IMG/VR virus record: IMGVR_UViG_3300015366_000115
Span: 1-21,231 of that record
Source: a virus
DNA: 21,231 nt
Strand: one strand, 5' to 3'
Made by a program: the position numbers and the translations under genes. The notes under the pieces were generated by a model. The model ran no database searches. It worked only from the letters and a program-made list of their open reading frames with translations, and was not told the origin of the DNA. Shown here in pieces: positions 1 through 21,231 of this stretch (position 1 is its first letter; the number at the start of each line of letters is the position of its first letter).

Positions 1-2502
1 CTGCATAATCTGTGTTGTTAAGTTAGATACGTTAAGTTTAATATGATTGAGTTCTTTAATCACTCTTTGATAGATACGTTCTAAATCATAATTAACAATG
101 CCAGCATCAATAGCAAGTTCACCAGCAGTGAATACAGCCGCTACAAAGTTCTGATGAAAACGATATGCTGAATCCCCACCTGTATCAGTTAGATATCTAT
201 TAATCCAATGACCGATACGCATCTGGATATGATCATCGCCAACCGCATAAACTTTCTTAATAAATATAGGTCCTGCATGACCGTAGTTGTAATTGAACGC
301 ATCAAATATTTCTACACCAAGTTTAGCTCCTTCTGGTCCTTTTAAATCTTCTGGATGATCCATTAAGAACTCAATCAAACGTGCCGCTTCTCCATCTGGG
401 CTTCCCTTAAAAATCTCAAACTTGTTGTAAACAGATTCGTTTGTAGTTAATACTGCGATCAATGACGCCATCATTTCTGTTACTCGTTCAGCATTAACTG
501 AAGCTTGCATACGGATTTTGGCTTTACCGTTTGATACGTTATGAACTAATTGTGATAGCGGTCTGGGATCTTTATTACCTACCTCATCTACTCCAAACAT
601 TAAGTTTTTAAGAGCAAGCATACGACCTGTTAAACCGTTATCTGTACTTTCAAAAACGCTAAGTGCTTTAGGGTCTCCAAAAATACTAATACCAGCATTC
701 ATTGCGCCAGTCTTAGCGCTACCTGACCTACCAAGCAAAGATATAACAACGCCTGGGGTAGATGTATAACTCATAAGAGTAGAACCGAATCCTGCAAGGC
801 AAGTCATAGCGTGCAACTCAAACCCTAAACGGTTAAGCTGATTAGCTGATTGTTGCCAGCGTTCAAACGTACCAATCTTTTTAAAGTGCTTAGCGATACC
901 TCTAATGTATGGGGATATAGGAGCATCATTAATTTCACCACTTGAAGTTATTTCTGTTTCACCTATAACAAACCCACGCTTTTCCCATTTGTCTGAAGAT
1001 CTTTCTTCTGTCCAGCCTAATTGCATACGCATTTCATGTGCCTTTCCTAAGTTAATCATATATTGACTCCATTTAACAAGATATTCTTGTATGTTTGTAA
1101 AGTACTGCGGTGTGTATATTACCTGATGAAACGCTAATAACTTCTTTAGCTCTGCATCTATAACTACTGATCTCATCGGTAATAAAAACTCTTTTAAACC
1201 ATCTTTTGGTAAAACTAAATTCATAGTCATACACTCTCCATCCAGTTGACTAAACAGTCTACGAGTCGGGTATAAAACGTGAGCAAGTATCTGTACTGGA
1301 TCTTTCTGTTTGACAACACCTTTTTTATCTACGGCTGGCGGCGGTTGATAATAGACACCCCCATTCTCACCACGAAAGAAAGGTCTTAAGAATTCTGGGA
1401 AGACTGGAATACTTTTGGCACTCTGTGTCTCCCGAACTGATTCCTCCTGATTGGATATTGGGGTTTCTTCTGTTGCTTCTTTGATAACTTTTCCGAGGAC
1501 GATGGGGGTGTTGATCTTTCCTCTGTATTTACATCCTTCACATTGTTCGGGGAAGTTATCAGTAAACCATTCACAAGTTCTCGGCCCACCAAAAGAGCGG
1601 GCAGTTTTTTCTGTTTCATTTGGGTCATATTTATCGTATTCGTTAGACATATCATGGATAGCTGTATCTCCGTCCACACAGTGAACTGCTATTGTTAAAC
1701 CGCCAGCCCATTGATCTCTTGGTGCATCTTTTTGGTGTTCCAGCAAATATTTAATCTGATTACATCCATCATCCTTTAGAGAGCGCAGAGCAATTTTCTG
1801 AAAGCTCCACTCTACATTGTCTAAATTCTTCATAGCCAACGTGTCTTCGTCTAAACCTTTTTTAACTGTTGACAACACGTCATCAGTGGACCCAGCACTT
1901 TGGCTCGTTAAAAAGTTTTTAAACTCATCGAAATCATAAACATCTATAGTGTCACTTATCACCTGTGCCATAAATGGCGGGTCATATCTATAGTTAAGAG
2001 TTTCTGGGCATCTCATCAATCGTGCGCCGTCGGCTGTCACGGACTTATCAATCCTGATGTGTTTCATGCAGATGGCTTTAAACTTCTCTGCTAATGGTTT
2101 CCATTCATCATAGGGTAAATCCCTATCCATAATCCAGTAGGCATGGATACCACCACCTGAATCTATACAAACTGGTTGGGGAAAACCCGCAGTTTCTACT
2201 AAATAATTTAATGCTTCTAGTGTTTCTTGTTTAGTGCCATAAGCATTTTTACCATGAGTATCTATATCTAAGAAAAAACTTCTAACAAATACACAGTTAT
2301 CTGCTTTTCTACTCCACCCATCAAAGGATGCTGGTGTTACATATATATTAAGTTTTTTTCCTTTAAGGCTTTCAATATTTGTATATACATCTTCAAAAGT
2401 TTCTGCAAAGCGGCTTGTCGTCTTTCCCGTTTCTGGATCAATACCGCAAACGCAATAAACTCCTTGTGATGGCAATGCTTTCTCGTAAAATTGTTTTAAC
2501 AT
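1..2502 (-). CDS. Primase-helicase (AEP-like primase fused to DUF927-type ATPase), 3' end cut by window edge
   Basis: This large open frame (834 codons, no stop before the window edge) starts at the only usable ATG after an in-frame TAA at 2536-2538. The N-terminal third looks like an archaeo-eukaryotic-type primase: FLDID at about residues 77-81 supplies the acidic metal ligands and SGGGIHAYW at about 115-123 the histidine motif, followed by a RLMRCPETLN segment near 161. A cysteine cluster (C-x10-C-x2-C, near residue 310) may bind zinc. The C-terminal half carries a Walker A motif (GRSGSAKTG, about residue 588) and a Walker B-like GVDEVG (about 634), as in DUF927 helicases. It probably primes and unwinds phage DNA with the polymerase at 8191-10080. 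No ribosome-binding site is evident; a hairpin lies just upstream. Confidence 0.88.
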   Translation of the reverse strand, partial: MLKQFYEKALPSQGVYCVCGIDPETGKTTSRFAETFEDVYTNIESLKGKKLNIYVTPASFDGWSRKADNCVFVRSFFLDIDTHGKNAYGTKQETLEALNYLVETAGFPQPVCIDSGGGIHAYWIMDRDLPYDEWKPLAEKFKAICMKHIRIDKSVTADGARLMRCPETLNYRYDPPFMAQVISDTIDVYDFDEFKNFLTSQSAGSTDDVLSTVKKGLDEDTLAMKNLDNVEWSFQKIALRSLKDDGCNQIKYLLEHQKDAPRDQWAGGLTIAVHCVDGDTAIHDMSNEYDKYDPNETEKTARSFGGPRTCEWFTDNFPEQCEGCKYRGKINTPIVLGKVIKEATEETPISNQEESVRETQSAKSIPVFPEFLRPFFRGENGGVYYQPPPAVDKKGVVKQKDPVQILAHVLYPTRRLFSQLDGECMTMNLVLPKDGLKEFLLPMRSVVIDAELKKLLAFHQVIYTPQYFTNIQEYLVKWSQYMINLGKAHEMRMQLGWTEERSSDKWEKRGFVIGETEITSSGEINDAPISPYIRGIAKHFKKIGTFERWQQSANQLNRLGFELHAMTCLAGFGSTLMSYTSTPGVVISLLGRSGSAKTGAMNAGISIFGDPKALSVFESTDNGLTGRMLALKNLMFGVDEVGNKDPRPLSQLVHNVSNGKAKIRMQASVNAERVTEMMASLIAVLTTNESVYNKFEIFKGSPDGEAARLIEFLMDHPEDLKGPEGAKLGVEIFDAFNYNYGHAGPIFIKKVYAVGDDHIQMRIGHWINRYLTDTGGDSAYRFHQNFVAAVFTAGELAIDAGIVNYDLERIYQRVIKELNHIKLNVSNLTTQIMQ

Positions 2503-2515
2503 ATGCGCAAGGGAT

Positions 2516-2537
2516 AAAAAAGCGGATTGCTCCGCTT
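2516..2537 (-). terminator. Rho-independent terminator-like hairpin directly upstream of the primase
   Basis: Read on the minus strand, AAGCGGA and TCCGCTT form a 7-bp stem closed by a GCAA tetraloop (GNRA class) and run into a T tract at 2516-2521. It lies 3' of the helix-turn-helix gene and its T tract ends 13 bases before the primase ATG. It could end or attenuate the transcript coming from 2923. Confidence 0.65.
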
Positions 2538-2608
2538 AGGTTAATGGGTGGGGAATTCGTTAGTTTACTGTTTTTTTATCTACACGAGCTAACTATCTTC
2601 CTCATAAA

Positions 2609-7152: not shown

Positions 7153-7593
7153 TTATTTAACTTTATTTTCTTTGATCTTTTTAATGTGGGCCGCCTTGCG
7201 TAGGTCATGGCTATGAAGTTTTTTACCGACTGACTTCGGTACTTCGCCAACTTTTTCAGCTACCTTCGCCGCCTTCTTGCGATTAACTATTTCACCATCG
7301 GTCAACGCAAACTCATGTTTAGCCCCTTTAGCTTTCTTGCCTTCTTTAGCAATCAACTCGTCATGCGACCACGCTTTACTTGGGGCTTTAACAATCTTGC
7401 CCGACTTCTCTTTAATTGCTGGTACTTTAACCTCTAATTTCTTAGCCATCTTTTTACCTTTCTTAAATAGTTTTTCATCAGTATATATGGGTATGTCATA
7501 TCCGTCACGCTTGCGTCTACTAAACCAAAAAAATTTAAGTTGTTTAGTATGCAGTGCGCCCGATGACATCCATCCAATTCTTTTCGCTTTCAA
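7153..7593 (-). CDS. Lysine-rich phage protein of unknown function
   Basis: The full frame is 146 residues from a TTG codon (7591-7593) that overlaps the stop of the sigma-like gene as TTGA, with GAGG about 10 bases upstream. An internal ATG near 7449 behind AAAGG gives a 98-residue alternative, so the true start is uncertain. The stretch HEFALTDGEIVNRKKAAKVA followed by LHSHDL resembles a motif seen in several small phage and bacterial proteins (x-I-T-x-G-x-x-x-x-R-x-x-A-A, then L-H-S-x-D-L). The rest is very basic. Function unknown; nucleic-acid contact is plausible from charge only. Confidence 0.65.
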   Translation of the reverse strand: MKAKRIGWMSSGALHTKQLKFFWFSRRKRDGYDIPIYTDEKLFKKGKKMAKKLEVKVPAIKEKSGKIVKAPSKAWSHDELIAKEGKKAKGAKHEFALTDGEIVNRKKAAKVAEKVGEVPKSVGKKLHSHDLRKAAHIKKIKENKVK

Positions 7594-8201
7594 AACGGTG
7601 CATCCTCAATTTTTGGTTTTAGTCTTGCTTGCATTAATTTTAATTGGGCTTCATGCGTTCTTTTTTGTTCTTCCCATTTTTCAAAAGCTCTATTAAATTG
7701 TTCATACCCACCCTTTTCCCAGTCATATTCGTAATCTTCCATTTTAGGTGGTGGAGTATCAAATATTAACGATGATTTTGCATCGGGATCAAGTAATGAT
7801 TTATAAAATATTGTTCTAGTAGGATGACGCATTTTACGTAATGCTTTGGCTTCAATTTGTCTAACCCGCTCTCTACCCACTCTATACATACTTGCTATTT
7901 CTTCAAGTGTATGATCAGTATTCAGATTTATACCAAACCGTAAACGTAATAATTTTGCCTCTCTTGGTGTAAGTGAATCAATTATGTTATTCATAACTTC
8001 GTTTGCTTCATTATTGGTATATAAATCTTCAGGCGTAGTCAGATTGATTAATTCCTCAATAGTTTCAGGGTCAACCGAATCACTAAAAGTTTCTTCTTCT
8101 ATGTAATGTTTAGGGGTGTATTGATCAAGTGATACGTTTCCTAAAGTGCTTCTTACTTCTTTTTCCCGATAGTCATACAAATTTTTTAATTTAGTCCTCA
8201 T
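7590..8201 (-). CDS. Truncated sigma-70-like protein (regions 3.2 and 4 only)
   Basis: With the start at the ATG at 8199-8201 the protein has 203 residues. Residues about 78-128 (LTPREAKLLRLRFGINLNTD, then HTLEEIASMYRVGRERVRQI and EAKALRKMRHP) are a close match to RpoD region 4. Residues about 24-60 (SLDQYTP...EEETFSDSV) resemble the region 3.2 linker. Regions 1 and 2, which bind core polymerase and melt the -10, are absent. About 75 extra residues rich in charge and aromatics follow. A start at 8321 is possible but would lie deep inside the polymerase gene. It overlaps the polymerase stop by 11 bases. Confidence 0.87.
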   Translation of the reverse strand: MRTKLKNLYDYREKEVRSTLGNVSLDQYTPKHYIEEETFSDSVDPETIEELINLTTPEDLYTNNEANEVMNNIIDSLTPREAKLLRLRFGINLNTDHTLEEIASMYRVGRERVRQIEAKALRKMRHPTRTIFYKSLLDPDAKSSLIFDTPPPKMEDYEYDWEKGGYEQFNRAFEKWEEQKRTHEAQLKLMQARLKPKIEDAPF

Positions 8202-10080
8202 TTTTCCACTCTTCCATTTCTCCATAGTTGTATCCATAATGAGCCTCACAAGCAACGGGTAGTCCTTTAGCCCAATCTGGCGGTGTTGACATGACCTCGA
8301 CGATCCATGCACAAGCTTCATCTACGTCATCCTCAGGAACGACACATACCGCAGCGTCGTGTACTGTTAGCACTGGGCGATATCGCTCAGTTAATTTCAG
8401 CATTTGCTCCCCTACAATAATCCTAGCAAGTGCTTGAACTACGTTTTCCGCTATTGACCCGCCCCATAAGCTTATCGGGCCCTTGCGTGATTTGTATTGG
8501 TATCCGCTTTTACTATCATCAGTATTGAGTTGCAATTCGGGGTAGCGTATATAAAGCCCGTTTGGTAATAAAAACCCGTCTTGATGCACTTGAACACATC
8601 GATGCTTCCCGTAGTAAAAAGGCTTCTTATCTTTTGGCCAGTCAGCCATTGCTTTTAATGCTTTGTCGCCTTCTTTCCATAGTTTTACAATCTTGTCATT
8701 TTCTTCTCTGTATAGCTTAACAATATCATCACAGACGCTTTCCTCAAGGTCAGCTCCAGGAGGTTGTGTTTTTAATGTGTGTTGAAGTTTTAACGCACCA
8801 GTCCCATAGCCCAATCCAAGGATGCAGGTTTTACCCACAAACCTTTCGATAGGATCTTTTTTGCTGATGGGGCGTTTATAGATCTTCGTCGCAAACTCGG
8901 AGTAAACATCATTTCCTTTCGAGAATGACTGTACCAAGTCCTCCTGACCTGAAAGCCATGCGAGTACTCTTGCTTCAATCTGAGACGAGTCGCAGTTGAT
9001 AACCATATATCCCTCGGGGGCAACCACTGCATTCTTAAGAGTCTTTTTCTTCTTGTCTCTACTCGGCAAGTTTTGAAAGTTGACCTTATCACTCCCTGCC
9101 CACCTACCCGTATGCGCCCCGTAGTACTTAAGTGGTATCGGTAAGAAACTCTTATTTCTTGCTCCAATGTCGATAAATCTTTCAATCCTACTCTCCTCTA
9201 TTGTTGACTTAGTTCCCAAACGCACGGCAGCGAGTTGTTGTACAAACGGATCTTCATGTTCTACTAACTCAATAAAGCCTGTATCGTTTTTCGCCAGCGC
9301 AAATGTTTGCTTGCCAGTGGTAGGGCTTACTTTCATCGGTACTGGGATATTAAATTCTTTTAGTAATTCAGCAAACTGCTTATTACTTGCCAAGCGTTTA
9401 CGCACCGCTTCTTCATCCTCACATTTGAGTTTTTCTTTGAGCGTGCCTAGTAATAGTAATTTCTCATGCTTGAGTTCATCAAGCCGTTCTTGTAACAAAT
9501 CGTAGTTTACTTTTAATACAGGTTTGATAAACATACGTAAAGTCATGTCAATCAGATTAAGTTCTTCTTGTGGGAACGCACTAGACAATACTTGGAAAAG
9601 ATTGAAAGTTAGTTCCACATCATTTTTACAATACTCGCCATACTGAACAAGCTCGCTATTTGTGAAACCAGTTATATTTTTACCTTTAGCCTCAACTACC
9701 TCGTGTCCCTTTTTCCCTAAAGAATATCTCTCGGCGAGGAAAGCTAAAGACCCCCCTACATCAACACCGTTCGTAGCCCTACCCATACATAAAGTATCGA
9801 GATAAAACTTAGGTTCAAGATTAAATCTCCACTTAAGAATCGCACCGTCAAACATTGTATTGTGGCAAAGTAAAGCACTATCCTTCCACGGTAACGTGGA
9901 AAGGTATTTAGCGATATCAAGGTGCGATCCTGTAACCCACACAGTAGAATCATCATTTAACTTGACCCCAACACCGATCACTTCAAAGCGTTTATCTTTG
10001 ATGTACTCCTCAGTAGTAAGTTTCGTCAAAGAATATTCTTGAGAATAAAAAGTCTCGAAGTCAAGTGTAATTAGATTCAT
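8191..10080 (-). CDS. polA: Family A DNA polymerase with 3'-5' exonuclease
   Basis: A 629-residue replicative phage polymerase. The exonuclease residues are all present: D7 and E9 (LDFET), D78 (NTMFD) and Y150/D154 (YCKND). The polymerase domain has TGRW near 324, motif A DSSQIEAR (D364), motif B with K417 followed by LGLGYG, and motif C VHDA (H574, D575). There is no 5'-3' flap nuclease domain, as usual for phage enzymes. The residue four after K417, equivalent to Phe762 of E. coli Pol I, is Leu421. The ATG overlaps the preceding stop as ATGA. Confidence 0.97.
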   Translation of the reverse strand: MNLITLDFETFYSQEYSLTKLTTEEYIKDKRFEVIGVGVKLNDDSTVWVTGSHLDIAKYLSTLPWKDSALLCHNTMFDGAILKWRFNLEPKFYLDTLCMGRATNGVDVGGSLAFLAERYSLGKKGHEVVEAKGKNITGFTNSELVQYGEYCKNDVELTFNLFQVLSSAFPQEELNLIDMTLRMFIKPVLKVNYDLLQERLDELKHEKLLLLGTLKEKLKCEDEEAVRKRLASNKQFAELLKEFNIPVPMKVSPTTGKQTFALAKNDTGFIELVEHEDPFVQQLAAVRLGTKSTIEESRIERFIDIGARNKSFLPIPLKYYGAHTGRWAGSDKVNFQNLPSRDKKKKTLKNAVVAPEGYMVINCDSSQIEARVLAWLSGQEDLVQSFSKGNDVYSEFATKIYKRPISKKDPIERFVGKTCILGLGYGTGALKLQHTLKTQPPGADLEESVCDDIVKLYREENDKIVKLWKEGDKALKAMADWPKDKKPFYYGKHRCVQVHQDGFLLPNGLYIRYPELQLNTDDSKSGYQYKSRKGPISLWGGSIAENVVQALARIIVGEQMLKLTERYRPVLTVHDAAVCVVPEDDVDEACAWIVEVMSTPPDWAKGLPVACEAHYGYNYGEMEEWKNED

Positions 10081-12860: not shown

Positions 12861-13169
12861 CTAGCATCTCCCATCATCTGTATCATCAAATAAACCTTCT
12901 AGCATTGTGTCGACGTTTGACTCATTGACTACAACTGCCGTTCCACCCCCACGTTGAATTCTCTTTATGTGTTCTGCTTGTAAAGCCGTTGGCTTGTTAC
13001 TGCCAGACTTGCACTCGATTCCTATAAACTTGCCTTGAAAACATACAAGGATATCAGGTACACCACTAGCACCATATCCAGCAGTGAACGGCATTGTGAA
13101 GTAGATCCCTCTATCGGTTAAGTATTTCTTTACTCTTGCTTTTAATTTAGCTTCTGGTGTTTGTGCCAT
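12861..13169 (-). CDS. VRR-NUC domain nuclease
   Basis: A 102-residue single-domain VRR-NUC protein of the PD-(D/E)XK superfamily. GVPDILVCFQGKFIGIECKS gives the catalytic D39, E52 and K54, and Q64 (ALQAEH) follows as expected; E6 could be the N-terminal acidic residue. Stand-alone phage VRR-NUC proteins are thought to cut Holliday junctions or other branched DNA, so it may resolve replication intermediates before packaging. It has a strong GAGGAGA ribosome site and overlaps the preceding gene by 23 bases. Confidence 0.92.
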   Translation of the reverse strand: MAQTPEAKLKARVKKYLTDRGIYFTMPFTAGYGASGVPDILVCFQGKFIGIECKSGSNKPTALQAEHIKRIQRGGGTAVVVNESNVDTMLEGLFDDTDDGRC

Positions 13170-13506
13170 TGTCTTCTCCTCTTAAATTAAATAAAGATAC
13201 GTAGGGCAACACGACGATAAACCATGAGTCGCTCGCTTGCCATCCTACATCGCTCAGTTCATTATCCCTTGTCGTCATCAATCCTAAATGTGTTAGTTCA
13301 TGGTCATACAATATCTGTTGACTTCTCGCTAAAATCATAGCCATCTTAGTTTTGATTTCATCAGGTAAAGTGTTCTCATCAAACTCTCGTTTATAACCAT
13401 CAGCAACATATATGGTGTAATGGTTTCCTTGCTTACGTAATGGCACACGATATAAGTCATAGTTATATTGATGAACGATAGGGCTTAGATTATCTATCAC
13501 TATCAT
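13147..13506 (-). CDS. Small HExxH (zincin-like) phage protein
   Basis: A 119-residue protein when started at the ATG at 13504-13506, which overlaps the previous stop as ATGA; the earlier in-frame ATG at 13545 lies inside that gene. Residues 66-76 (LYDHELTHLGL) hold H69-E70-x-x-H73, the zincin motif, with E83 as a possible third ligand. DVGWQASDSWFIVVL follows. The length is close to that of minimal zincins. It may be a protease or a non-catalytic metal-binding protein. The next gene but four encodes another HExxH protein with a VWA domain. Confidence 0.7.
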   Translation of the reverse strand: MIVIDNLSPIVHQYNYDLYRVPLRKQGNHYTIYVADGYKREFDENTLPDEIKTKMAMILARSQQILYDHELTHLGLMTTRDNELSDVGWQASDSWFIVVLPYVSLFNLRGEDNGTNTRS

Positions 13507-14426
13507 TGGGCTTGGTGGACAGATAAGCATGGTATGAATGTCCACAAAAATTTATCTGTTGCAGGTCTATCATTGGACACTTGTATAATATCAAAGTCTT
13601 TTAAGATTCCATCGTGGGGTGGAATATAATTTCCCCAAAAGGTATGGTATTTGCCTTGTTGTTCGTGGTATACCTTCTGCATTAGCATAATAGGTAATAA
13701 GTGCTCGTGCTTACTTAGATCTTTTACTCGTACAAAATTATCTAATACTTGATACTTTCTCATTCCATTCTCCATAAACATTTTAACTTTGCCGACTATT
13801 AAATGATTAAACTTATCAGCACCAATAGCATAAAAGCCGTATGTGCTAAAGAACCTATCAACATCTTCGTTCGTTGCTTGTTCTATTCTATCTGCCTGAT
13901 TGTATTTGTCAAGTAGTTTTTTACATATTTCTAAATTATTTAATTCAGTAGTTTCCCCTAGAGCATATTTCAATAGTCCATGTATTGTGTTTACAGAAAG
14001 TTCATCTCGCTTATGAGTATTGCCATGTGAGTCTTTCAAATAGGCTATAGCAGAGTTAAAGTTCGGAGAGTAGTTGGCTAATATGTATCCCTCGTCAGGC
14101 ACAAGATTATTTTTGTTTATAGTCTGCATCAAGTTTGACAGTTTCTTACTATAGAAAGTTTCTCTATCTTGTGTAGTGCGACCTCTATCTTTTCTGTGGA
14201 AGAAAGATCTAAAGAAATACTCTCCATCTTCTATCCACGCAGTTGCAATAACAAACGTGCCTGTTTTCTCAGTCAACAATACTGATTTATTATTAAGTAT
14301 TTCTTGAATTCCTATTGCTTTCACACCGAACTTAAAGTTTAATTCGTATATGAATTTCTTTATTGATGTGCTTTCAATAAAATCTATTGTTTCTTGTGAT
14401 GTAAATCCATCTATAACATACTTCAT
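13503..14426 (-). CDS. Unrecognised 307-residue phage protein
   Basis: I do not recognise this family. It has mixed alpha/beta composition, no signal peptide, no membrane segment and no clear nucleotide-binding motif. Notable stretches are FVIATAWIEDGEYFFRSFFH in the first third, GRTTQDRETFYSKKL, FFSTYGFYAIGADKFNHLIV in the middle, and HTFWGNYIPPHDG near the end. It starts with AAAGGAGAAGTGAAATG and overlaps the HExxH gene as ATGA, so the two are probably co-translated. It could be an accessory of the MoxR/VWA cassette. Confidence 0.72.
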   Translation of the reverse strand: MKYVIDGFTSQETIDFIESTSIKKFIYELNFKFGVKAIGIQEILNNKSVLLTEKTGTFVIATAWIEDGEYFFRSFFHRKDRGRTTQDRETFYSKKLSNLMQTINKNNLVPDEGYILANYSPNFNSAIAYLKDSHGNTHKRDELSVNTIHGLLKYALGETTELNNLEICKKLLDKYNQADRIEQATNEDVDRFFSTYGFYAIGADKFNHLIVGKVKMFMENGMRKYQVLDNFVRVKDLSKHEHLLPIMLMQKVYHEQQGKYHTFWGNYIPPHDGILKDFDIIQVSNDRPATDKFLWTFIPCLSVHQAQ

Positions 14427-14491
14427 TTCACTTCTCCTTTGGTAACATAAAAACTTTGGTTAATAAAATATATAATTCTGCGTCGTCAAGA

Positions 14492-15532
14492 TTAGTAATG
14501 TTCTACTTCTTTACCGTTCACTGTTATAGTTAAACCCCATTCACTTGGTGGATACATCTCACCCATCGTATGCTCGATAGGTTTCATCACTTCGTTATGT
14601 CGTCTATACAATTCTTTATTCAACCTACGCTTAAGGTTATCGAATAAAGTAATCGGCTCGATTTGGTATCCCATGTTTCTACCATACTTCATGTTATTTA
14701 TATAGACTCTTGTGATGTAACCTAATCTAGATATATCGTGTGCTAATGCGTAAGCCAACGCTGAGTCCAACGGTGCAATGTTAATGTTATTGTCTGCCCA
14801 CTCAATCATTCGCTTTGTAGACGTCCGACTAAAGTAATAACTTTCTAATTCATCTTTCTCTGCTAACGAATGGATGACGTCTATAGTAGTATCCAATACT
14901 GTCTTCATATCAATCGTCTTAAACATTACCTCGTTTATTTTGTAGAAATCTTCATACTTCTTAAGGAATTGTTTAGCGTCTTTACGAGATACCCTCTTAC
15001 CTGTTACCTGATAGATAGAAGATTCATGTGGCATCATCGTGTCAATATGTAGTCTCATACCTTTGAATATAGGATGAAATATATCCATAGTTCTGTCGTA
15101 ATATACCATTCCACCATGACGTGAACTCCTAAAGAAGTATCCTCTACTCCATTGGCTCATCACAGAATTATGTCCTTGCCCATAGTAATCCCCAGTAAAC
15201 TCAAAGGTATTGTCCGAACGCACCACGCCTAACACATTAGGCGTTGTTGTATATGTGCAATATTTTCTACTCTCGTCGGTCTCCCAATCACGACATGAAA
15301 TAATAGGTTTAGCTTTCTTTTGATCTTTTAAATATTCTTCTTTCGTGTGGAAGTGTTCTAGGTATTTGTAACCGTAAGTTATTTCGTATACAATCTCACC
15401 ATCAATTTCTTTCACGTAGAAACATTTTGTATTATGTCTTCTATCTGCTATTGGATAACGGTTGGTTGAATTACGATAGGGTTTTACATTCTTAGTTATC
15501 TCGGTCAATCTATTCCAATCTAATGCTCTCAT
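14492..15532 (-). CDS. Unrecognised 346-residue phage protein in the MoxR/VWA cassette
   Basis: Not recognised. The N-terminal half is rich in Tyr, Arg and His (ITYGYKYLEHFHTKEEYLKD, RGYFFRSSRHGGMVYYDRTM); the C-terminal half is helical, with a SLAEKDELESYYF segment and an LDSALAYALAHDISRLGYIT helix. No catalytic motif is evident. It lies directly after the 107-residue gene, with only a single base between stop and ATG and a shared KEK-stop/ribosome junction. A substrate or adaptor of the ATPase/VWA pair is a reasonable guess from position only. Confidence 0.72.
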   Translation of the reverse strand: MRALDWNRLTEITKNVKPYRNSTNRYPIADRRHNTKCFYVKEIDGEIVYEITYGYKYLEHFHTKEEYLKDQKKAKPIISCRDWETDESRKYCTYTTTPNVLGVVRSDNTFEFTGDYYGQGHNSVMSQWSRGYFFRSSRHGGMVYYDRTMDIFHPIFKGMRLHIDTMMPHESSIYQVTGKRVSRKDAKQFLKKYEDFYKINEVMFKTIDMKTVLDTTIDVIHSLAEKDELESYYFSRTSTKRMIEWADNNINIAPLDSALAYALAHDISRLGYITRVYINNMKYGRNMGYQIEPITLFDNLKRRLNKELYRRHNEVMKPIEHTMGEMYPPSEWGLTITVNGKEVEHY

Positions 15533-15533
15533 T

Positions 15534-15857
15534 TCACTTCTCCTTATCTAGTAAAGTTAATACTGCTTTCCATAGTTTCACTTCTTCTTCACTGCTCGTA
15601 TTGCTAACTACTCTTTCCAACGCATAGTAATGAGCCTTATCACCATGCGTTTGTTTTAATAACTCTGCTATATCATCTGCAAATTTTGGGTTTTTTGCAT
15701 CGGTGCTATACCATTTTTCTTCTCCATCAGGCATATATATCCTTATAAAAAATGTTTTCCAATCATGGCTTTGATAATAAAAATCACTGCCGTCTTTAAT
15801 GTTATTATTTACTCTGACGTAATTTTTAAAGACTTCAGTAGTCGCTAGTTCAATCAT
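15534..15857 (-). CDS. Small phage protein of unknown function
   Basis: A 107-residue protein with a beta-like first half (DWKTFFIRIYMPDGEEKWYS) and a helical second half (SSEEEVKLWKAVLTLLDKEK). No known motif. The ATG overlaps the stop of the VWA gene by 8 bases, which ties it to the cassette. The C-terminal codons double as the AAGGAGAAG ribosome site of the next gene. Confidence 0.7.
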   Translation of the reverse strand: MIELATTEVFKNYVRVNNNIKDGSDFYYQSHDWKTFFIRIYMPDGEEKWYSTDAKNPKFADDIAELLKQTHGDKAHYYALERVVSNTSSEEEVKLWKAVLTLLDKEK

Positions 15858-17139
15858 TGTTAACCATGACTTTCTTACCTGTTGGAACGTCGAGGTCTTT
15901 ATTCTCAGTAATCATCCACAGGGTAGGGGAAGAGATAGTCCACTCAATATTATTTTCTACGTAGCCGTCAGTAAACACGATGACACATTCTGCGTTAATC
16001 TTATTCTCATTGATGTAGTGGTTCACTGAAGAAACTCTTGTGCCACCCCCACCCACAGGCTTAAGCAATGATGCGATGTTTGAATACTGGTCAGGCTTGA
16101 AGTATTGTTCCCCATGCACATCGTAATCCCACCATATAACTCTAACTGCCTCAGGCGATACAATGTCAACAATTGATGCCAGTTCCGTAGCAAATTCAGT
16201 TAACTCCTCAGTGCCAATAGAACCTGACGTATCAATAGCAACCACCACCTCACCGATCGTCTCGTTCTCCATGCTTGGTAGATAATAGTCATTAGCCAAG
16301 TGTCGCTTATTCATCTTACGCCAAGTGTATTCATCGTTCCCCCTCATCGTGGAAGACACAAACTCTCGTAAGGCATCTCGCCAATCGACCTTCGGTTCAA
16401 GCAAGTCGGATATCTGTCTAGGCATCTTGCCACCCATACGACCAGCAAGCATACCACCTTCACGTAAGGCTCGATCAATCTTATCACCCAACTCCTTACG
16501 TTCCTCGTCGCTAAGACCTTCAACATACGACTCCCAGTCATGTTCGTCGAAGTCACTACCCATGTCATATTCTCTGCCGTTTGCTTTGATGATGTTATCT
16601 TGCTTTCCACCCCCACGTGAATCGCTATTGTCATTGCATGGCTCATCTCCTGAACTACTCTTAGGTTTCTGTCTTTGAGGATTCTCCTTACGGATATGGT
16701 TATAGACCTCACGCATAGACCAATTATGAAAGAACGGGTCATATAACGCACCATCAGGTAACATAACAATAGGCTCGCTGCCGTTTGCTATCTTTCCTGT
16801 AATATTCTTTATGATATCGTTCACCACAAAATCGGCTGACATATTTGCAATCTTTGCATCTTCCTTGAACATATCCCTACCTCTTGGAATCTGTTTCAAT
16901 CCGACATGAAGATTCTCATGCAAGACTAGACCACGCAACTTGGCTTCTTCGATGATAGTCTGTAAGAATGGTTTAGAATACCTCTTATTGACACCGTCGG
17001 TATACGCAGTGAATAGACTATCACTTACCTCGCTCTTACCCATTAACATAACACCCGAATACAATGCAGTTTCGGGATGCTTCATCAATGCGATGTGTGC
17101 TTTCTTCAAGCGTATCTCTTCTTTGTTTTTCGTTTCCAT
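15850..17139 (-). CDS. DUF2201-like protein: N-terminal HExxH domain plus C-terminal VWA domain
   Basis: A 429-residue protein. The N-terminal domain has H74-E75-N-L-H78 (VLHENLHVGL) and a later SADFVVND at 101-108, the layout of putative metallopeptidases of the DUF2201 N-terminal family. A Ser/Gly/Asp-rich linker (about 155-190) joins it to a helical segment and a von Willebrand A domain with an intact MIDAS: D303-T-S-G-S307, T367 after a GGGG turn, and D391 (VFTDGY). DUF2201 proteins are usually encoded with MoxR ATPases, and one lies two genes upstream. The VWA part probably recruits a client for the ATPase. Confidence 0.92.
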   Translation of the reverse strand: METKNKEEIRLKKAHIALMKHPETALYSGVMLMGKSEVSDSLFTAYTDGVNKRYSKPFLQTIIEEAKLRGLVLHENLHVGLKQIPRGRDMFKEDAKIANMSADFVVNDIIKNITGKIANGSEPIVMLPDGALYDPFFHNWSMREVYNHIRKENPQRQKPKSSSGDEPCNDNSDSRGGGKQDNIIKANGREYDMGSDFDEHDWESYVEGLSDEERKELGDKIDRALREGGMLAGRMGGKMPRQISDLLEPKVDWRDALREFVSSTMRGNDEYTWRKMNKRHLANDYYLPSMENETIGEVVVAIDTSGSIGTEELTEFATELASIVDIVSPEAVRVIWWDYDVHGEQYFKPDQYSNIASLLKPVGGGGTRVSSVNHYINENKINAECVIVFTDGYVENNIEWTISSPTLWMITENKDLDVPTGKKVMVNND

Positions 17140-17140
17140 A

Positions 17141-17332
17141 TTAATCCTTTACTCTAACTATTTCGATTGATTCGCCATTGTCGACAATCTTTGCTTTACC
17201 TCTTGCAACCTCTTGAAGTTTGAAGACTGTAAACTTTTTAAATTCCACTGACTCGTGTAACGCTCTTTGCCATAAGACAGTCGTTACTATCCCCCATATA
17301 AACAACACTATTTCACTGTTAGTTATTAACAT
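17141..17332 (-). CDS. Small single-pass membrane protein
   Basis: A 63-residue protein. Residues about 4-22 (TNSEIVLFIWGIVTTVLW) form one hydrophobic helix at the N-terminus, followed by a polar tail with LQEVARGKAKIVDNG. It has an AAGGAGAA ribosome site and sits exactly between the MoxR-type ATPase and the VWA gene, with 1 base to the next ATG. It could tether the cassette to the inner membrane. No homologous family comes to mind. Confidence 0.68.
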   Translation of the reverse strand: MLITNSEIVLFIWGIVTTVLWQRALHESVEFKKFTVFKLQEVARGKAKIVDNGESIEIVRVKD

Positions 17333-17347
17333 TTAAATTCTCCTTAA

Positions 17348-18421
17348 TTAAAACAACTCATGGTTATTCTTAGCCCACTCTGCGATCTGTGCATTGTTAC
17401 GGGCTAACTTGATTGCTTTGGCATTACGCATCATCATAGTAAAGAATACTGCTTGAACCTCTGAACTAGGAATCTTATTAACGAACTGCATGAACTTCGT
17501 CAACTCGTCTTGCGTCTCCAATACATCTACTGCTTGAAACATAATCATTAACTGTGCTGATACCTCGTCAGGAATCTTTACAAGGTCAGGTGCTTTGATG
17601 ATATCCTTGACGTCGATAAGAGTTTTCTCTAACGATAGAAACGCTGACATATCTGCCGATGCACTCTGACCGATAGTGCCAGCAAGTGAAACCATCGTAG
17701 CGTTCTCACCTAAGATATCTCTATTCTTTACAATCACGTCGCACTTCGCCAAAGAACGAGGGGAACAGAATGATAACTGAGACTTCTTAGGGTTAAAGAC
17801 ATACGGGTTATCGTCTTGGTTACCATCTCTATATGATGCTAAGACTCTCGGGAACAAGGCAACGAAAGCACGAACAACACGAGAGATATTATTCTCCGAT
17901 GCCCATTGCAACCATGTATTAACATCAGGCTTTGCCATCTCTACCTTACACACACGATTGCCTGCGTGGGCAAGCATCGAGTCGCCTACACCATCGCTTG
18001 CATTGTTGCTTGTTGCGAAGATTATGCTTCCACGTGGTAGTGGAACATCACCCACCATACGCTCTAACATAAGACGTGTAAAGATAACTTGCAATAACTT
18101 CGGTGACTTCATAAACTCGTCAAGGCAAATTACTTTAGGTCTTGGGTCTTCAAGACAGAACAACGATGACACATAATATTCTAGTGTCTTGGTCGCATGA
18201 TTTGGAATAGTCATACCTATGTCTGACATATCTTTTACAGGACAGTCAACGTAGATGTATTGATACTCGTCTCCAAGATCAGTTTCCATCATACGTAATA
18301 GAGAGGTCTTGCCACAACCCGGCTCACTCGTTACGACTACCGTCAATTCTTTACCTACAATTGGGATAAGTCTACGCAACTCATCAATAGAAACAGTAGG
18401 GACAAAATTTATATTACTCAT
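17348..18421 (-). CDS. MoxR-type AAA+ ATPase
   Basis: A 357-residue AAA+ protein. Walker A is SEPGCGKTS (32-40, K38, T39), Walker B is VICLDEF (97-103, D101, E102), and sensor 1 is FATSNN (135-140). LAHAGNRVCKVEM after it matches the arginine-containing segment that follows sensor 1 in MoxR proteins, and a helical C-terminal lid follows. MoxR ATPases work with VWA proteins to remodel or load metal cofactors into targets. The DUF3150-like gene precedes it and the VWA gene follows. Ribosome site AGGAGAAGTAAATG. Confidence 0.92.
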   Translation of the reverse strand: MSNINFVPTVSIDELRRLIPIVGKELTVVVTSEPGCGKTSLLRMMETDLGDEYQYIYVDCPVKDMSDIGMTIPNHATKTLEYYVSSLFCLEDPRPKVICLDEFMKSPKLLQVIFTRLMLERMVGDVPLPRGSIIFATSNNASDGVGDSMLAHAGNRVCKVEMAKPDVNTWLQWASENNISRVVRAFVALFPRVLASYRDGNQDDNPYVFNPKKSQLSFCSPRSLAKCDVIVKNRDILGENATMVSLAGTIGQSASADMSAFLSLEKTLIDVKDIIKAPDLVKIPDEVSAQLMIMFQAVDVLETQDELTKFMQFVNKIPSSEVQAVFFTMMMRNAKAIKLARNNAQIAEWAKNNHELF

Positions 18422-18431
18422 TTACTTCTCC

Positions 18432-18503
18432 TTATATAGAATTAAAAATAAAAATACACATAATAAACACATACAACAATGCAACTACAAACAAATTAAA
18501 CAC
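18432..18503 (-). CDS. Possible membrane micro-protein (23 residues, GTG start)
   Basis: A 23-residue frame in the 74-base gap between the DUF3150-like and ATPase genes. It begins with GTG overlapping the upstream stop by 8 bases, with GGTGGG about 7 bases before it, and is one hydrophobic helix (FNLFVVALLYVFIMCIFIF, then NSI). It ends just before the ATPase ribosome site. The AT-rich gap could produce this by chance, so confidence is low. Confidence 0.35.
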   Translation of the reverse strand: MFNLFVVALLYVFIMCIFIFNSI

Positions 18504-19431
18504 AACTAAACCCACCGAACTTAGACAGAATGTCGTCAATGCCTTCCTTCACATTCGAACGCACTGCGTCTGAGTCGCGTATATCTTCTGCCTTTACACC
18601 TTGTAATACTTTCTCTAACGATGCTCGTGCCAACTCCAGCTCACTATCGTGCTTGAGATTAAATCCTTTGAAACTCTCACACATCTCCAATGCTTTTTGG
18701 ATTGTCGTATCATAAATCTTTCTACGCTTATATCGCACATCATCATGCCCTGATGGGTTTTTAGTCCGTATCTCATCAAAGTCGCAACAATGAGAAATAC
18801 TCTGCATGACGTCAATTAGTCTTCTACTTTGCTCTTCTGCGATTGAATCAATAATGTTCTTACTTTGCTTGGATAATGTAATAAACAAATCATCAGCGAT
18901 ATCCTTCGCAATGCCACAACGAAAGTCGTTCGTAGGAACTTCACTCACATACAAATCCAACGAGAACTTACTTGCAACTTGTTCTTTTGGGGGATAGTCC
19001 ATACGATTAAACATAGTGCCTTGTTTGAAAGCCATATCCGACACGATATTGTCGTAGTCGATTATTAACGAGTCCACTAGAGCGTGGAAGGCTACTTCAT
19101 GCTCGTGATACTCTTGCTTGAACTTAGGCATATCAATACTTGGCAATAAGTTTTGGCTTTGATTCCAGCGATAAGTCCGACGTTGAAGCCAGTTATAGAT
19201 GGTCTGCCTATAATTAACTACTGCCTTGTGCTTGGGGTGGTTTGCCAATAGGTTCTTGACATAACGACCAGCACTTTCATCAGCGTTCTTTGCCGTAGTG
19301 ATTTCATTACTGATACCACGATCTTGCTTTGTTGCTGACCATACGCTGACATCAACACTCACCAACACGGCACTGCTCGCTAATGAGATTAAATGCTCAG
19401 GCATTTCTAATTCCATATGTAACATATTCAT
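18496..19431 (-). CDS. DUF3150-like phage protein
   Basis: Started at the ATG at 19429-19431, which has the GGAGAAG site and overlaps the previous micro-gene stop as ATGA, the protein has 311 residues. The first half matches the DUF3150 layout as I know it: LVSVDVSVWSATKQDRGIS, then ADESAGRYVKNLL, then RTYRWNQSQNLLPSIDMPKF, followed by long helices. The second half is helical and charged. DUF3150 proteins recur in phages beside MoxR/VWA genes; their role is unknown. It probably works with the ATPase encoded next. Confidence 0.85.
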   Translation of the reverse strand: MNMLHMELEMPEHLISLASSAVLVSVDVSVWSATKQDRGISNEITTAKNADESAGRYVKNLLANHPKHKAVVNYRQTIYNWLQRRTYRWNQSQNLLPSIDMPKFKQEYHEHEVAFHALVDSLIIDYDNIVSDMAFKQGTMFNRMDYPPKEQVASKFSLDLYVSEVPTNDFRCGIAKDIADDLFITLSKQSKNIIDSIAEEQSRRLIDVMQSISHCCDFDEIRTKNPSGHDDVRYKRRKIYDTTIQKALEMCESFKGFNLKHDSELELARASLEKVLQGVKAEDIRDSDAVRSNVKEGIDDILSKFGGFSCV

Positions 19432-19526
19432 ACACTTCTCCCTATACATAAATCCACGACCACGTGGAAGATTAAATAAATAAATGCAACTGCTATGACT
19501 AACTTCACTACAAAATCTTCTAACAT
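19428..19526 (-). CDS. Membrane micro-protein (32 residues)
   Basis: A 32-residue frame with an excellent GGAAAGGAG ribosome site, beginning 12 bases after the promoter-like element. It has an acidic start (MLEDF) and one hydrophobic helix (VVKLVIAVAFIYLIFHVVV), ending in DLCIGRSV. The stop overlaps the ATG of the DUF3150-like gene as ATGA. The codons for YLIFHVVVDL lie over the CCACG-N4-CGTGG repeat. A leader-peptide role for the cassette is possible. Confidence 0.6.
   Translation of the reverse strand: MLEDFVVKLVIAVAFIYLIFHVVVDLCIGRSV
19454..19480. repeat. Dyad repeat CCACG-N4-CGTGG plus AT-rich flank, copy 1
   Basis: CCACGACCACGTGG (19454-19467) is followed by AAGATTAAATAAA. The same dyad and flank occur at 20947-20974. 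Both copies lie between a promoter-like element and the next AGGAGAAG or GGGAGAAG ribosome site. It could be an operator or an RNA hairpin; here it also lies inside a micro-gene. Confidence 0.65.
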
Positions 19527-19537
19527 AAAAACTCCTT

Positions 19538-19574
19538 TCCCATTAGATATAAGTATACTATAACTTTACATATT
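19538..19574 (-). promoter_or_regulatory. Promoter-like repeated element, copy 1
   Basis: On the minus strand this 37-base stretch matches 30 of 37 positions of 21010-21046, including ATGTA, AGTTAT and TATACTTATA. TATACT (19552-19557) could be a -10 with TTGTAT 17 bases upstream as a weak -35. It lies in the only sizeable gap between 19591 and 19526 and just before the micro-gene and the MoxR/VWA cassette, so it probably starts that transcript. Confidence 0.6.
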
Positions 19575-19590
19575 ATACAAGTCTTTTATT

Positions 19591-20927: not shown

Positions 20928-20946
20928 GAACTTCTCCTAAGTAATT

Positions 20947-20974
20947 CCACGTGGACGTGGAAGATTAAATAAAA
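20947..20974. repeat. Dyad repeat CCACG-N4-CGTGG plus AT-rich flank, copy 2
   Basis: CCACGTGGACGTGG (20947-20960) is followed by AAGATTAAATAAA, the same flank as copy 1 at 19454-19480. Here the inner bases extend the inverted arms to CCACGT/ACGTGG. It lies in the leader, 12 bases before the AGGAGAAG ribosome site of the first gene, so a repressor bound here could block elongation, or an RNA hairpin could affect translation. Confidence 0.65.
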
Positions 20975-21009: not shown

Positions 21010-21046
21010 TCCCATCTGTTATAAGTATAACATAACTATACATATA
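21010..21046 (-). promoter_or_regulatory. Promoter-like repeated element, copy 2
   Basis: It shares 30 of 37 positions with 19538-19574 on the minus strand, with TATACT at 21024-21029 as a candidate -10. No good -35 is seen, so it may need a phage factor or an activator. It lies upstream of the first leftward gene. Its core TATATGTATAGTTA recurs in the opposite direction at 21166-21179. Confidence 0.6.
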
Positions 21047-21231
21047 AGAATACCCTTCTAGATAACTTTTTAATTTGACGGCAGTGAGATTGGATGGGGC
21101 AAGAGGCGAAACCAGTTTTTTTAAATTCTAAAAAAATTCTAATGTTCTGAAAAAAATTCTAAGTTTATATGTATAGTTAGAATTTTTTTGATGAGGGGTT
21201 GGGTGGTGTAAGTCATTGATATATATATATA
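21047..21231. other. Non-coding control region at the right edge (divergent promoter or origin candidate)
   Basis: No gene is supported here. The stretch 21073-21115 is relatively GC-rich (GACGGCAGTGAGATTGGATG and onward) and ends in a T run. Then come TTCTAA at 21126, 21137 and 21157, TTCTGA at 21145 and an inverted TTAGAA at 21177. The window closes with GATGAGGGGTTGGGTGG and a TA run. The layout fits a switch between leftward genes and rightward genes beyond the window, or an origin. Confidence 0.5.
21150..21189. repeat. Perfect 13-base inverted repeat around a promoter-core copy
   Basis: AAAAAAATTCTAA (21150-21162) and TTAGAATTTTTTT (21177-21189) are exact inverted copies with 14 bases between them. 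The core TATATGTATAGTTA (21166-21179), shared with the 21010-21046 element, lies in the centre facing right. The arms hold a single GC pair each, so a strong RNA terminator is unlikely; an operator or DNA-unwinding site is more plausible. Confidence 0.8.

Follow-up and report, generated by a model that had tools for sequence, protein, structure and literature searches.

The DNA analysed here (the window) is the complete IMG/VR virus record IMGVR_UViG_3300015366_000115, 21,231 bp long and probably a genome fragment. Its minus strand carries a string of genes headed by a trio that encodes a DUF3150-like protein, a MoxR-type AAA+ ATPase and a protein in which an HExxH (zincin) domain is joined to a VWA domain. 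The trio is the conserved core of the string, and an uncultured aquatic phage group appears to turn it on early in infection. We favour, with somewhat less than even confidence, a reading in which the trio is an early AAA+ remodeller or protease that acts on nucleoprotein or host complexes during genome takeover, for phage replication and recombination, the class of target being suggested by genomic context. The argument is built on gene content and order, motifs and their conservation, a promoter-like element, separation from virion genes and a homologous trio on plasmids. Phage systems of the MoxR-vWA/metallopeptidase kind are known already; the three-component version is new.

The trio and its conservation in the phage clade

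A preliminary description of this DNA had proposed a coupled gene string at 13147-19431, and all the open reading frames (ORFs) that it named were recovered on the minus strand, with coordinates that equalled or came very close to those proposed. From 19431 down to 12861 the order is the DUF3150-like gene, which starts with ATG at 19431, the ATPase gene, a 63-codon ORF, the DUF2201/VWA gene, u107, u346, u307, u132 and a VRR-NUC/Hjc-like nuclease gene (Table 1). Neighbouring genes overlap at the VWA/u107, u307/u132 and u132/nuclease junctions.

IMG/VR scans yielded 30 relatives of the VWA protein, 206 of the DUF3150-like protein and 388 of the ATPase, the best 80 of each of the latter two sets being kept. 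Conservation was followed in 85 IMG/VR loci with distinct ATPases, and presence of a gene was scored only where enough flanking sequence was available. Gene order was identical in 85/85 distinct loci. The DUF3150-like gene was present in 70/70 and the VWA gene in 72/72 loci, compared with 53/57 for u346, 52/53 for u307 and 46/51 for u132. Mean column identity was 62-74% for the trio and 38-40% for u346 and u307. The ratio of nonsynonymous to synonymous substitution rates (dN/dS), considered only where synonymous sites were unsaturated, was calculated for the window against its nearest relatives. It was ~0.07-0.13 for the trio versus 0.06-0.07 for DNA polymerase; the values of u346, u307 and u132 ranged from 0.11 to 0.32, and those of u107 reached 0.36. 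Such low values indicate purifying selection; thus, all ORFs of the string are real, selected genes. A 7.6-kb contig with the trio (L123) was binned in the metagenome-assembled genome of an uncultured actinobacterium, which may be a hint of the host or a binning error.

The family assignment of the ATPase made in the preliminary description stands. The protein matches PHROG 1297 ('ATPase') with E=5.5e-52, and its Walker A, Walker B DE, sensor 1 N, Arg-finger-like R and sensor 2 SPR align with those of N4 gp24 and other phage and plasmid homologues. The key Walker A/B residues are invariant in 33 sequences, and a VWA gene is coupled to the ATPase gene in 72/72 loci. In Pfam searches the protein remained below cut-offs (AAA_5, 14.9 bits with a cut-off of 22; AAA_3, 13.6 bits with a cut-off of 27), so that 'MoxR-type' refers to homology, motif order and the VWA partner, and not to Pfam.

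The 429-residue protein passed the Pfam cut-offs for both DUF2201_N (PF13203, 88 bits versus 23) and the DUF2201 VWA-like domain (PF09967, 64 versus 26). Its HExxH residues (H74, E75, H78) and the residues of its metal ion-dependent adhesion site (MIDAS; D303, S305, S307, T367, D391) are invariant in 43 aligned sequences, which bears out the earlier view of a DUF2201-like HExxH and VWA protein with an intact MIDAS. The same motifs are found in N4 gp25, phage G gp576, plasmids and the cyanophage MinM2. The label 'HNH endonuclease' that PHROG 1314 attaches to this protein was rejected, since the DUF2201 domains fit and no Pfam HNH match was found; the label, which this family also bears in many phage records, looks like a propagated error. 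The small membrane protein described between the ATPase and VWA genes was recovered as a 63-residue ORF product with one hydrophobic segment, and a transmembrane-like small ORF occupies this place in 53 of the 96 loci that have both genes.

The DUF3150-like call is borderline for single sequences but gains support from profile-profile comparison of a widened family. The window protein gave no Pfam match to PF11348, no relative genome reached the PF11348 cut-off, and 12/38 homologues matched the family weakly (E<=1, best E=0.0047). A widened family profile compared with four plasmid DUF3150 proteins gave an hhalign probability of 91% (E 9e-7), versus 15% (E 0.0018) for a clade-only profile against plasmid DUF3150; comparison with a single PF11348 protein, that of pRA1, was not significant, and only the widened profile gave support. 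Judged by these sequence comparisons, the relationship to Pfam DUF3150 proper is distant. A limited literature search found no paper on DUF3150. Profile searches of the PDB with alignments A1-A5 returned nothing informative; a match of A4 to a 'circular tendon repeat protein' covered a 42-residue stretch and was discarded as uninformative.

The promoter-like element, genome position and accompanying genes

The DUF3150-like gene is preceded by a promoter-like element, and a second copy is found upstream of small early genes (Table 1). The core of the second copy is matched exactly, with 0 matches expected by chance. Across the clade the element has the form TTG(ACT)-N17-TATACT, which is of sigma70 type, and its spacer is conserved (ATGTAAAGTTATGT). 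In 59/70 distinct loci it was present in the 300 nt that precede the DUF3150-like gene, and in 0/70 in an intragenic control stretch. Four large relatives (G001, G003, G004 and G009; 53-66 kb) carry it always at the head of the trio strand, G009 in one copy and the others in two copies ~1.5 kb apart; all control sequences together contained one match, and the element was not found in the virion regions of these relatives. A generic scan of the window revealed no excess of sigma70-like sites. Just downstream of each copy, in the minus-strand sense, there is a near-palindromic repeat, TCCACG..C.CGTGGAA followed by GATTAAATAAA (plus strand, 19449-19480 and 20942-20973), a possible operator or leader structure.

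In the same four genomes the trio is located upstream, and on the same strand, of genes for VRR-NUC, polA, a Cas4-like nuclease, a SNF2 helicase and primase, and is divergent from the terminase, portal and capsid genes. Early expression of the trio is suggested because the element fits sigma70 recognition by the host RNA polymerase.

Table 1. Features of the minus-strand gene string and upstream region of the window
Feature	Coordinates	Strand	Basis or remark
VRR-NUC/Hjc-like nuclease, first gene of the replication group	12861..13169	(-)	PHROG 93 endonuclease; overlaps end of u132
u132	13147..13521	(-)	Alignment A6; overlaps u307 gene; start ATG 13521 or GTG 13545
u307, confident predicted fold	13503..14426	(-)	AlphaFold2 pLDDT 93.6; 52/53 loci
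u346, confident predicted fold	14492..15532	(-)	AlphaFold2 pLDDT 94.4; 53/57 loci
u107	15534..15857	(-)	Present in a subset of relatives; 8-bp overlap with VWA gene
Zincin (HExxH) and VWA protein, 429 aa	15850..17139	(-)	Pfam PF13203, PF09967
63-aa protein, one N-terminal hydrophobic segment	17141..17332	(-)	Transmembrane-like small ORF
MoxR-type AAA+ ATPase, 357 aa	17348..18421	(-)	PHROG 1297 and aligned motifs
DUF3150-like protein, 311 aa	18496..19431	(-)	Alignment A1, mean column identity 68%
Promoter-like element TTGTAT-N17-TATACT, upstream of DUF3150-like gene	19538..19588	(-)	Repeat family D2
Second promoter-like copy, upstream of small early genes	21010..21060	(-)	75% identical copy

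The proteins of 107, 346 and 307 residues had been listed as unrecognised, and neither they nor u132 gave a Pfam or PHROG match. Homologues of all four keep the same order in related phages. AlphaFold2 models of u346 and u307, built from deep alignments, had a high predicted local distance difference test score (pLDDT; Table 1) and no significant match in the PDB; in BFVD, u346 had one significant match, A0A6J5QYP6 (E 2.7e-9), which comes from an uncultured phage. The four loci that lack u346 form two divergent branches, in one of which (L026/L028) the u307 position is taken by a 335-residue, weakly u307-like protein (hhalign 68%, E 5e-5). By eye, u132, u346 and the C-terminus of u307 looked like paralogues, but hhalign gave a probability below 0.5% and the idea was dismissed.

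The idea that u346 and u307 are clients of the ATPase/VWA pair is weakened. They accompany the trio inside the clade, as their counts show, but are missing from carriers of the pair or trio outside it: the proposed check that they always co-occur with the pair came out negative, profile searches finding no match in N4, phage G, Enterobacter phage SABI, the cyanophage S-TIM54 or any of three plasmids bearing the pair or trio, and no homologues being found in the MinM2 region examined. Two MinM2 proteins encoded downstream of VWA, MM2_63 and MM2_64 (346 and 300 residues), are alike in size, but homology was undetectable. We conclude that u346 and u307 are not obligatory clients. They are a distinct and rapidly diverging trait of these phages that the machine does not need elsewhere, and they may be clade-specific partners.

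Among other genes of the window, a 243-codon ORF (7590-8321) contains a sigma-70 region 4 domain (Pfam E 4e-17) and overlaps the 3' end of polA by ~130 bp; 38-42 residues of it match in relatives, so its extent and conservation are uncertain. A DUF927-type primase gene (19-2556, minus strand) runs off the contig end with its reading frame open, for which reason the ORF list lacks it, and a broken primase gene suspected at 1-2600 was rejected on these grounds. The VRR-NUC/Hjc-like nuclease gene occurs in the same order in 4/4 large relatives.

Relatives outside the clade and alternative explanations

Homologues of the trio were found on plasmids and in a cultured phage. On Burkholderiales plasmids, a gene flanked by those for an ATPase and a VWA-like protein encodes a homologue of the DUF3150-like protein (hhalign 98.6 and 99.3%), and a whole-plasmid search of such plasmids with the profile of the DUF3150-like protein gave E 7e-21 to 6e-31. 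On pBMC401, Robbsia p3 and Simplicispira plasmids all three proteins are homologous to the phage trio. The order on Burkholderiales plasmids, ATPase-DUF3150-VWA, is unlike that of the phage clade, u346 and u307 are absent, and no described function was found; on the Simplicispira plasmid other genes intervene within the set. The DUF3150-like protein also has a homologue (E 1.7e-17) in the cultured cyanophage MinM2, where it is annotated 'DUF3150' and where MoxR ATPase and VWA-like genes are present too. MinM2 (Synechococcus; OQ594354) and the phages Pag-Yong1 (OL906435) and Pra-JY27 (PP438419), both assigned to Planktothrix, are each 65,014 bp long with identical match scores, and so are probably one phage despite the different stated hosts.

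Plasmids pRA1 (IncA), pCAR1 and those of Comamonas and Providencia share the three-part make-up of AAA+ ATPase, DUF3150 and VWA proteins, the DUF3150 component being distantly related. Three of these sets adjoin recombination genes of the bet/exo/RecT type, which on pRA1 and in Comamonas separate the ATPase gene from the DUF3150 gene. The VWA partner of pRA1 is CobT-like, and its ATPase has a CbbQ_C domain, unlike the window ATPase. The VWA partners of pRA1, pCAR1 and Providencia, the three examined, have an N-terminal HExxH and a MIDAS, and in these sets (L145, L150 and L152) the CobT/NorD-like partners also show a conserved Asn/Asp motif downstream of HExxH. Their sequences suggest that these partners share a zincin-VWA architecture.

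In N4, phage G, SABI and S-TIM54 the ATPase/VWA pair occurs without the third component; thus, three-part and two-part versions exist. In N4 (Schitoviridae), the genes of gp24, a homologous AAA+ ATPase, and gp25, a DUF2201 HExxH and VWA protein, are adjacent and precede those for helicase and DNA polymerase. Identity to such phage homologues is ~20-27%, and N4 has no DUF3150-like component, u346 or u307. The SABI pair is near a RecD-like gene. Replication or recombination use is best supported by this context: replication genes in the clade, bet/exo/ssb/RecT on plasmids, the RecD-like gene in SABI, and helicase and polymerase genes in N4.

Several points weigh against the favoured reading. Nearness to replication genes is an argument from association, and in two of three Burkholderiales plasmids inspected (pBMC401 and Robbsia p3) the trio adjoins type IV secretion system genes and not recombination genes. 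All loci belong to one phage clade, and synteny therefore partly reflects co-inheritance. Early expression is read from a sequence element and its position, and the early timing, complex formation, protease activity and target class are things we infer. To our knowledge, peptidase activity of DUF2201_N has never been demonstrated.

The main rival, somewhat unlikely in our view, is counter-defence or host takeover, with the machine remodelling or cleaving host defence or transcription proteins early and u346, u307 and u132 serving as variable effectors or adaptors that choose targets. The position of the trio and the promoter-like element would suit this as well, and so would its occurrence on plasmids and phages alike, which face the same defences, and the faster divergence of u346 and u307 than of the trio. 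However, no known anti-defence family was matched by u346, u307 or u132, and the selection on them is purifying, not diversifying. That the string is a mere run of unrelated early genes, with shared function limited to the ATPase/VWA pair, we consider quite improbable: outside the clade u346 and u307 indeed do not follow the pair or trio, but within the clade, on several plasmids and in a cyanophage from a different lineage the ATPase and VWA genes come with the DUF3150-like gene. Auxiliary metabolism of the cobaltochelatase, NorQD or CoxDE kind, in which metal is inserted into an enzyme of the phage or host, is the least probable explanation and can almost be set aside. Some plasmid VWA partners are annotated as CobT/NorD-type and NorQD inserts iron, but near the cassette in the window we recognised no gene for a chelatase large subunit, a cofactor enzyme or a metal pathway, and the window ATPase lacks the CbbQ_C match seen in pRA1.

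A role as a chaperone and protease that matures or assembles structural virion proteins, by analogy with tail formation in Acidianus two-tailed virus, deserves separate treatment. A MoxR-vWA pair with an N-terminal metallopeptidase is known in group 2.2 jumbo phages, for which virion assembly has been proposed (PMC7824862), and the N4 gp24/gp25 pair was recorded in 2009 as a conserved AAA/vWFA pair (PMC2784036). The earlier statement that it is unclear what such a pair does for a phage thus needs qualifying, both reports being already in print. In S-TIM54 a virion structural gene follows the pair at a distance of ~240 bp. In the clade, however, the trio has its own promoter-like element and is divergent from virion genes, and the trio is missing from the 50 kb examined of the related phages HTVC023P and 023Pt_psg01, whose capsid and terminase are 62% and ~50% identical to those of G001. 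DSL-LC04 has none in 47.5 kb examined. The machine thus appears not to be tied to virion type, and neither linkage to virion genes nor a need by virion type was found in the clade. N4 gp24/gp25 lie among nucleotide and DNA metabolism genes; no gene-fitness data on them were found. The element, the divergence and the relatives that lack the trio in the regions examined argue against the published proposal as an explanation of the clade trio, and we regard it as decidedly unlikely here.

Proposed mechanism and comparison with known systems

In the favoured reading, the trio, at the head of the replication genes, would be transcribed early from a sigma70-type promoter of its own, probably by the host RNA polymerase. 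On the model of NorQ/NorD, the hexameric ATPase would hold the VWA domain on its ring, the MIDAS metal would grip an acidic patch on the target, ATP hydrolysis would twist or pull that target and the HExxH domain may cut it. The DUF3150-like protein could be an adaptor or scaffold peculiar to the three-part version. The most likely class of target would be a nucleoprotein or host protein complex that is opened, cleared or cut for phage DNA replication and recombination, and u346, u307 and u132 would be lineage-specific early proteins, possibly adaptors or effectors. A bolder and rather doubtful extension is that the trio is an unnamed three-component AAA+ remodelling/protease system, common to plasmids and the early operons of abundant aquatic phages, that serves genome establishment, with u346 and u307, as new folds, recruited as target selectors.

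MoxR/VWA machines are widespread and targets are known for few. The presence of the trio on both plasmids and phages, together with its constant place in this clade heading the replication strand, apart from the virion genes, offers a testable alternative to virion assembly. MinM2, with the trio, and N4, with the pair, are cultured systems open to genetic testing, and u346 and u307 are two confidently folded phage proteins without solved relatives.

The model of mechanism comes from NorQ/NorD and RavA/ViaA, which likewise combine a MoxR ATPase with a VWA partner. We know of no DUF3150-like component in either, and their targets are respiratory enzymes, unlike those proposed here. In NorQD, a VWA finger is inserted inside the AAA+ pore, the MIDAS is required for target activation and twisting is driven by ATP (PMC9976466, PMC13036017). 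The jumbo-phage pair, too, is made up of a MoxR ATPase and a vWA protein, the latter with a metallopeptidase fused to its N-terminal end (PMC7824862). It is described as a two-component system, whereas in the phage clade studied here three components head a replication-linked gene block.

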